A stretch of 64,000 nucleotides of DNA from an uncultured Alphaproteobacteria bacterium. GTDB taxonomy: Bacteria; Pseudomonadota; Alphaproteobacteria; HIMB59. Under the pieces are notes generated by a model. The model made no database searches. It saw only the letters and a list, made by a program, of their open reading frames with translations, and was not told the origin of the DNA. The translations under genes and the position numbers were made by a program. Positions 57,317 to 60,141 of the stretch are shown here, one piece after another (within the stretch, counting starts at the first letter, position 1; each line of letters starts with the position of its first letter). Location of the stretch: positions 1 through 64,000 of the forward strand of contig CACKEA010000002.1 in assembly GCA_902599045.1 (NCBI GenBank), given 5' to 3'.

Positions 57317-57784
57317 ATGTCAATATATCTTAGAACAGAAAAAATAATCCCAGATTGGACAGATTACAATGGCCATATGAATTTAGCCTTTTATATTCAT
57401 TTATTTGATCAAGGCTGGGACGTATTACTGGATAGATTTCAAATGGGTGGAGAGTCAGCAAAAACAGAACAAAGATCAACATTTGCTGTAGAGTCTCATA
57501 CTAAATATATTCAAGAAGTTAAAGAAGGCGATGAGGTTGATATAAATTTATTATTTTTAGATCGTGACAAGAAAAGATTTGTTTATCAACTAGAAATTAT
57601 TAGTAAGAGTGGAAATTTTAGAGCAGCTACCTCAGAAGTATGCTCTCTTTACGTGGATTTAAATATCCGCAAAGTTATTGAAATGGAAGATCACAAGTTA
57701 AAGTTAGTTGATGACTTTATATCAAATAACAAAAGTCAATTTTCACCAATAGAATTTTACCTTTTAGATAAATTAAAAAAATAA
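57317..57784 (+). CDS. Acyl-CoA thioesterase (4-hydroxybenzoyl-CoA thioesterase fold)
   Basis: 155-residue hotdog-fold protein with WTDYNGHMNLAFYIHLFDQGWD near the N terminus, containing the D-x-x-G/N-H active-site pattern, and ESHTKYIQEVKEGDEV in the core. It likely hydrolyses acyl-CoAs. In related operons this type occurs with carnitine or betaine catabolism genes, but that link is not seen here. Its stop TAA shares one base with the next ATG (TAATG). Confidence 0.85.
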   Translation: MSIYLRTEKIIPDWTDYNGHMNLAFYIHLFDQGWDVLLDRFQMGGESAKTEQRSTFAVESHTKYIQEVKEGDEVDINLLFLDRDKKRFVYQLEIISKSGNFRAATSEVCSLYVDLNIRKVIEMEDHKLKLVDDFISNNKSQFSPIEFYLLDKLKK

Positions 57785-58977
57785 TGAAAGTTGCTATTAT
57801 CGGCTCAGGAATAGTAGGCCTAACACTTGCACTTACTTTGACAGAAAAGAATATAGAAGTAACTATTTTTGAAAAAGAAAAAGACTCACTATCACATGGA
57901 ACTGGAAGAAATAGTGGTGTCATTCATTCAGGAATTTACTATCAACCTAATACTTTAAGATCAAATCTTTGTATTAAAGGGGCAAAATTAATGAAAAAAT
58001 TTATTGTTGATAATAATCTTTATATAAATAATTGTGGAAAATTATTACTCCCCAAAACAAAAAATGATATTGAAACCTTGAATTTATTATATGAAAGATC
58101 AAAGGAAGTGGGGGTCGAAGCTCAGAAATTAAATAGTATAGAGGAAATTACAAGAATAGAACCAAATTGTAATCCTTTATACAATGATGCTTTATTCATA
58201 AAAGATACTGCTCTAGCAGATCCAAAAGAAGTATCTAATAAATTAATTGAGATATTAAAAAAAAGAAATGTGATAATAAAATATGGCTTTAAGGTAGATG
58301 AAATATCATCAGAAAATACTTCTATCACCATAAAAGGCAATATTAATAAATTTGATTTTATTATTAATTCTGCAGGCTTGCACGCTGACCATTTAGCTAA
58401 AAAGGCAAATTTAGAAACTGATTATACATCTCTGCCTTTCAAGGGAAAATATTGGAAAATTAACTTTAGTGATAAAAATGAAATTCCTAATAGATTAATA
58501 TATCCAGTACCTAATTTAGATTATCCTTTTTTGGGAATTCACACCGTATATGACAAAGCTGGAAACTTATATTTAGGCCCTAGTAATACACCAGTATTTG
58601 GAAGAGAGGCCTATAAGCCCTTTTATAAATTTAATTTGTTAGAGTTTTTTAATTTAAGTTATAAATTTATTTTAAAAATATTTTTTAATGAAAATAACTT
58701 AAGAAATTTAGCAATAAATGAGTTCAAAAATTTATTTTTATTTAATGTTAGGAAATCATCTAATGTTTATTTTAAACATAAACCTTCTAATATTGAATTG
58801 AGTAGTAAAGTGGGTATCAGATCTCAAATATTTGATAAAAAAAGTAAAAAACTATTTAATGATTTTGTAGTTATTAAGCAAAATAAAATTATACATATTC
58901 TAAATGCCATTTCTCCAGCATGGACATCATCTTTTGCAATGGCAGACTTTATATGTGAGAAATATAACTTTAAATAG
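57784..58977 (+). CDS. lhgO: L-2-hydroxyglutarate oxidase-type FAD oxidoreductase
   Basis: 397-residue FAD protein of the DAO family. The N-terminal IIGSGIVGLTLALTL is the nucleotide motif, followed by the LhgO-typical GTGRNSGVIHSGIYYQPNTLRSNLC and the substrate region KGKYWKINF. LhgO oxidises L-2-hydroxyglutarate to 2-oxoglutarate and passes electrons to the quinone pool. It is cotranscribed with the thioesterase (1-bp overlap) and probably the peroxiredoxin 9 bp downstream. Confidence 0.88.
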   Translation: MKVAIIGSGIVGLTLALTLTEKNIEVTIFEKEKDSLSHGTGRNSGVIHSGIYYQPNTLRSNLCIKGAKLMKKFIVDNNLYINNCGKLLLPKTKNDIETLNLLYERSKEVGVEAQKLNSIEEITRIEPNCNPLYNDALFIKDTALADPKEVSNKLIEILKKRNVIIKYGFKVDEISSENTSITIKGNINKFDFIINSAGLHADHLAKKANLETDYTSLPFKGKYWKINFSDKNEIPNRLIYPVPNLDYPFLGIHTVYDKAGNLYLGPSNTPVFGREAYKPFYKFNLLEFFNLSYKFILKIFFNENNLRNLAINEFKNLFLFNVRKSSNVYFKHKPSNIELSSKVGIRSQIFDKKSKKLFNDFVVIKQNKIIHILNAISPAWTSSFAMADFICEKYNFK

Positions 58978-59430: not shown

Positions 59431-59491
59431 TACCAAATAAAACTTATTCACAAATTATAAACAGAAAAATGAAAATATTTAATTTTTATAA

Positions 59492-59520
59492 TTGTTAAAA
59501 AAAATTAATTAATTTATCAT
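59492..59520 (+). promoter_or_regulatory. Sigma-70-like promoter of the small RNA
   Basis: TTGTTA (59492-59497) and TATCAT (59515-59520) with a 17-bp spacer. Transcription would begin near 59527, just before the GC-rich structured segment. It lies 62 bp after the peroxiredoxin stop and reads away from it. Confidence 0.5.
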
Positions 59521-59526
59521 AAAAAA

Positions 59527-59634
59527 TGTAGAGGGTTGGAAACTTCCCAAAACGAGGAAAAGGACCAAAGAAGTAGAGGCCGCGAAGAGGGAAACCAAAG
59601 CGAGGTCGAGACATCGGAGGTCCTTTTCTGTTTT
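59527..59634 (+). ncRNA. Candidate structured small RNA (~108 nt)
   Basis: A GC-richer, purine-rich segment in a very AT-rich gap. An 11-bp closing helix joins 59556-59566 (GGAAAAGGACC) to 59619-59629 (GGTCCTTTTCT). Inside are a helix GGCC (59578-59581)/GGTC (59604-59607), a GNRA-type hairpin GG-GAAA-CC (59589-59596), and CGA-GACA-TCG (59607-59616; it shares one base with the inner helix). A small GGA-AACT-TCC hairpin lies 5' (59538-59547). It has its own promoter and ends in a T-rich tract. No protein frame fits. It does not match SRP, tmRNA, RNase P or 6S RNA by eye. Confidence 0.65.
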
Positions 59635-59640
59635 ATTATT
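59556..59640 (+). terminator. Terminator formed by the closing helix of the small RNA
   Basis: The 11-bp helix 59556-59566/59619-59629 is followed by TTTTATTATT (59631-59640). The loop is long because it contains two to three inner hairpins, so termination is inferred from the helix and the T-rich tract rather than a simple hairpin. Confidence 0.5.
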
Positions 59641-59694
59641 ATTTTAAATATTAATTAACTAAGATTATCTCTAAAAAATTGATATGATGGATCA

Positions 59695-60141
59695 TTGAAA
59701 AAATTCACATCATATCTTTTTATAATTTTAATTTCTTTTAATATGAATTCATTTGCTGGACCGTTTACTGACGATTTTGCCAAATGTTTAGTCACTAAAA
59801 CTACAGCCCAAGAAAAAACTGATTTAGTAAAATGGATCTATGTTACAATTTCCTTTCATCCTCAGTTAAGTCAAATGTCAAACCTTACAGCAGATGACGT
59901 TGAAATGGCAAATATAAGAGTTGCTGATTATATGACTAATGTATTTGCCTACAAATGTAATGATGAATTAAATCAAGCTATTAAATATGAGGGTGAAGAA
60001 AGTGTATTTTATGCATTTGAACTTTTGGGTGAATTAGCAATGGGAGAACTTATGCAAGATCAAGGAGTAACAGCTGCAAGTGAATTATTTATTCAGTATG
60101 TCGATCTGAGTATTTTTGCTGAATTGTTTTCAGATTTCTAA
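59695..60141 (+). CDS. Small secreted protein, function unknown
   Basis: 148-residue protein from a TTG start, with a signal peptide (KKFTSYLFIILISFNMNSFA, cut before GPFTDD). The mature part is acidic and mostly helical, with two cysteines (FAKCLVT, YKCND) that could form a disulfide in the periplasm. I do not recognise the family. It is the only gene between the small RNA and the minus-strand cluster, from which it is separated by 1 bp. Confidence 0.68.
   Translation: MKKFTSYLFIILISFNMNSFAGPFTDDFAKCLVTKTTAQEKTDLVKWIYVTISFHPQLSQMSNLTADDVEMANIRVADYMTNVFAYKCNDELNQAIKYEGEESVFYAFELLGELAMGELMQDQGVTAASELFIQYVDLSIFAELFSDF

Follow-up and report, generated by a model that had tools for sequence, protein, structure and literature searches.

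Does the stretch of DNA that follows bcp near the end of the 64,000-nucleotide sequence analysed here (the window) hold a gene for a structured small RNA, and, if so, what might such an RNA do? An earlier note had proposed an unassigned structured small RNA that carries a promoter and a terminator of its own, and this core reading stands: a long helix covaries, no Rfam family matches the element, and the promoter and U-tract are conserved among its homologues. On comparative sequence evidence we conclude that the element is a real new family of non-coding RNA (ncRNA), so far restricted to one genus, "new" being meant relative to Rfam 15 and to published descriptions. Our analysis also adds to the earlier description a 22-bp upstream element, the one-genus range, the absence of the RNA from a closed genome of that genus and the exchange of its neighbouring genes.

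Structure and expression signals of the predicted RNA gene

The predicted ncRNA gene, about 110 nt in length, occupies positions 59526–59640 of the + strand, with a predicted start at 59526–59528 and a 3′ end inside a U-rich tract. Near its 5′ end stands the hairpin GGGUUG-GAAA-CUUCCC (59533–59548, with the GAAA loop at 59539–59542), which is near-invariant across 34 homologues. The rest is predicted to form a rod. This is closed by an 11-bp helix (59556–59566/59619–59629) with strong covariation and continues, in the structure model, through a short helix (59570–59574/59611–59615), a conserved 3×3 purine internal loop of AGA against GAG (59575–59577/59608–59610; alignment columns 50–52 and 83–85), whose sequence fits tandem G-A pairs, and a covarying inner helix (59578–59584/59601–59607), to an apical GG-GAAA-CC hairpin (59589–59596) lying within 59578–59607. 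Directly 3′ of the closing helix comes the U-rich tract (59630–59645), a probable intrinsic terminator. On re-check, the promoter motifs, GAAA hairpin, 11-bp helix and T-rich tract that the earlier note describes were all in place, and its descriptions of the element as richer in GC than its surroundings (0.36–0.42 versus 0.16–0.35) and as coding for no protein were borne out as well, no gene-sized open reading frame being found within it.

Thermodynamic folding, one of the checks that had been suggested, gives −38 kcal/mol for the + strand (z = −4.5), with none of 200 dinucleotide shuffles as stable, and z = −1.55 for the − strand. Averaged over the 34 homologues, z is −4.4 for the + strand and −2.7 for the − strand. 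The homologue alignment contains 62 G-U cells against 11 A-C cells, an excess that argues for selection on the + strand RNA; together with the folding energies, this asymmetry places the RNA on the + strand.

Pairing was counted on an alignment of the 34 homologues (A3), on which 93% of cells in the structure model are paired and 13 pairs show double changes. Shifting the partner by one column lowers pairing to 48–53%, and shifts of one to three columns give 37–53%. In the closing helix, for which a check of compensatory base changes had been called for, 99.5% of cells are paired and 6 of the 11 pairs carry compensatory changes. We then compared the pairs predicted by folding a single sequence with a tree-aware null of 1000 replicates, in which the tree, the number of changes on each branch and the rate of each column are preserved. 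Observed pairing was 96.4%, against 82.0 ± 3.3% in the null, and branches with compensatory double changes numbered 8.8 against 0.8; for either measure, 0 of 1000 replicates were as extreme. This whole-structure test was used because an R-scape-like test of all pairs has low power per pair: no individual pair was significant there, and the best columns (39–96) reached E ~0.13. Within helix 4, the pairs at columns 56–79 and 57–78 are broken in 14/34 and 10/34 sequences, respectively. The 5′ hairpin shows almost no variation, the first 28 nt being near-invariant in the 34 homologues, and since it lacks covariation, the evidence for its pairing comes from energy and invariance; in three divergent members a change of U11 to G turns a U-U mismatch of this hairpin into a G-U pair. 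Taken as a whole, the alignment points to a conserved structured RNA backed by covariation.

A sigma-70-type promoter, TTGTTA-17-TATCAT, is predicted on the + strand at 59492–59520 (TTGTTA at 59492–59497, TATCAT at 59515–59520) and is kept in the homologues. The number of promoter matches in the single sequence is at chance level (3 found, 3.2 expected). In almost every one of the 34 homologues a TTG-type −35 box and a TA-type −10 box stand 16–17 nt apart, and the end of the promoter usually lies 7 nt 5′ of GTAGAGGG. From this conservation of sequence and spacing, the ncRNA gene has its own predicted promoter. At the other end, a simple terminator scan detected no canonical terminator at the locus; transcription could plausibly terminate at the U-tract that follows the helix closing the rod.

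Distribution and relation to known RNAs

Homologues occur in 34 of the 52 genomes of the genus, in single copy in each, the source genome included. Covariance searches found none in the rest of the order (110 genomes) or in about 380 genomes of the class outside the genus, and phage records and viral contigs gave no match to the element. The exact 5′ motif matched 29 records, all titled as AG- series genomes of uncultured Alphaproteobacteria or Pelagibacteraceae. A second covariance model, run on 35 genomes without the RNA, yielded one weak and probably chance match (in G017, E = 0.5). The genus that carries the RNA is probably the AEGEAN-169/HIMB59 group, for which single cells from GORG-Tropics have been used and which is widespread in the ocean, with streamlined genomes of ~96% coding density (PMC10308909). 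Because such genomes are so compact, a conserved non-coding gene with an apparently regulated promoter would be costly to keep and is likely to be useful.

The closed genome of this genus (G001; 1,410,127 bp) lacks the RNA. In this genome and in G002, G008 and G009 the flanking thioesterase gene lies on a long enough contig, yet the RNA is absent, whereas in G006, G020, G048 and G049 the contig ends before the RNA position. In a weakly resolved thioesterase tree, G001 adjoins the RNA-bearing G007 and G025, so that loss of the RNA in G001 is likely. Its absence from the closed genome could explain the lack of an earlier description. None turned up in our searches of published descriptions. The alignment and covariance model can now be used directly to look for the RNA in existing marine metatranscriptomes.

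Covariance-model searches, as the earlier note had advised, matched no Rfam 15 family to the element, either at the gathering threshold or permissively (in the window, up to E = 5). Its statement that the element does not look like SRP RNA, tmRNA, RNase P RNA or 6S RNA likewise agrees with our searches: the SRP RNA of the source genome lies on another contig (C1:232953–233047, a covariance-model match), the RNase P and tmRNA models do not match the element, and the source genome gives no match to the 6S model, which does detect 6S RNA in Caulobacter. Like the bacterial small SRP RNA (RF00169), the element is a rod of ~100 nt capped by a tetraloop and interrupted by purine-rich internal loops, but it does not match the SRP model. 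Among the candidate ncRNAs of Pelagibacter (Meyer et al. 2009, PMC2704228), the fourth motif, near SAR11_0636, has been put forward as an ncRNA in its own right. Like our element, it is a small structured RNA with changing neighbours, encoded between genes where GC rises above the surroundings, in a marine alphaproteobacterium with a streamlined genome; compared by description only, it differs in forming a three-stem junction, in belonging to another lineage and in lying beside other genes. The unclassified psRNA groups and IMES RNAs of marine metagenomes and metatranscriptomes are the same type of object from the same habitat, and, as the earlier note suggested, the element could belong among them.

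Neighbouring genes and the upstream element

In most genomes bcp lies ~100 bp upstream of the RNA. Among all homologues the upstream neighbour can be bcp, a FAD oxidoreductase gene or a class II aldolase gene, and the downstream neighbour can be the secreted-protein gene, a convergent ALDH gene or a methyltransferase-like open reading frame. Three divergent members (L092, L093 and L094) have no bcp at the locus, the gene upstream being the aldolase in L092 and the FAD oxidoreductase in L093. In all neighbourhoods compared, the upstream element, promoter, RNA and U-tract travel together. Since the neighbours are swapped while this unit stays intact, we regard the RNA as a gene of its own, and as neither the leader of what follows it nor the 3′ end of bcp. 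A first impression of strict co-occurrence with bcp was abandoned, as G007, G015 and G025 carry the RNA at a locus that lacks bcp, and G009, conversely, has bcp but not the RNA. A riboswitch or other cis-acting leader was also rejected, there being no constant downstream gene on the same strand.

The FAD-dependent oxidoreductase gene (DAO family; 57784–58977 in the window) adjoins bcp and comes and goes between close relatives, which makes the small area around bcp a hotspot of gene turnover. The small, secreted-looking protein encoded at 59695–60141, which has no Pfam match, follows the RNA in some genomes but is lacking in others.

The conserved upstream element, CTTATTCACAAATTATAAACAG, spans 22 bp of the + strand (59443–59464) and contains two TTATNNACA 9-mers 11 bp apart. 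It is almost invariant among homologues while its flanking sequence drifts, it occurs at one place in the genome even when 3 mismatches are allowed, and it is retained in L092–L094 despite their different neighbour genes. The first TTATNNACA copy fits the DnaA-box consensus, TTATNCACA, and the 11-bp repeat spacing would also suit a regulator of the OmpR family. The element is likely a binding site for a transcription regulator.

Proposed function and competing explanations

With slightly better than even confidence, we propose that the element is a lineage-specific, regulated, independently transcribed and trans-acting structured ncRNA, whose 5′ GAAA hairpin would serve as a recognition surface, probably for a protein. 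A regulator bound at the upstream element would control synthesis of the RNA; the rod would provide a stable scaffold and the 3′ terminator; and the near-invariant 5′ hairpin and the purine loops would be recognised by a protein or would dock on each other. The RNA would thereby act as a protein-binding regulator or as a component of an RNP, not as an Hfq-type antisense RNA. Hfq was not found in the source genome, although at 95% completeness its absence is not certain, and neither was CsrA in the same 95% complete, streamlined genome. As neither protein was detected, Hfq-type antisense and CsrA-sponge mechanisms are disfavoured, and the latter was dropped as a candidate. A bolder version, which we consider quite unlikely, would make the RNA the founding member of an Hfq-independent, protein-binding class of global regulator RNA in AEGEAN-169/HIMB59, under cell-cycle or nutrient control through the TTATNNACA tandem and replacing the undetected 6S-, Hfq- or CsrA-type regulation.

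The 5′ hairpin could equally be a base-pairing site, and a trans-acting antisense RNA, pairing with mRNAs through exposed conserved 5′ and linker stretches without Hfq, is a possible if less probable account of the locus. The near-invariance of the 5′ 28 nt would be expected of a seed with many targets, and the predicted promoter and U-tract fit such an RNA; but the conserved stretch lies mostly inside the hairpin, and the free parts are short and A- and purine-rich, and hence not complementary to Shine-Dalgarno sequences; that no Hfq was found also speaks against it. We think it very unlikely that the element is a functional stand-in for 6S RNA that binds RNA polymerase. With 6S RNA (SsrS, RF00013), undetected in this genome by its model, it shares a single copy, independent (here predicted) transcription and the form of a rod closed by a long helix. 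However, the element has a separate, extra 5′ hairpin, is shorter at only ~110 nt, lacks an Rfam 6S match and is patchy even inside one genus, where the closed genome is without it; the large central, promoter-like bubble of 6S RNA is absent, internal loops measuring ~1–4 nt per side.

That the structure merely ends bcp, as its 3′ UTR or terminator, or forms a riboswitch-like leader of the downstream gene, appears highly improbable. The position ~95 nt past bcp, its usual neighbour, and the terminal U-tract would agree with this, yet L092–L094 have a gene other than bcp upstream, the gene on the downstream side is variable or convergent, the promoter is conserved in its own right and the internal structure goes far beyond what a terminator needs. 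We give hardly any credence to a DNA-level site, such as an origin or DnaA-binding region, in place of an RNA gene: the upstream element does carry a DnaA-box-like TTATTCACA beside AT-rich DNA, but the G-U asymmetry indicates selection at the RNA level, the 164 kb examined show no clear GC-skew switch near the locus, and the closed genome lacks the RNA. The trans-acting, probably protein-recognised RNA is the reading we retain.

As a separate observation, all 8 sites that match the DnaA-box consensus in 164 kb (window 1–64000 together with G000:C2:64001–164000) lie on the + strand, and none on the − strand.
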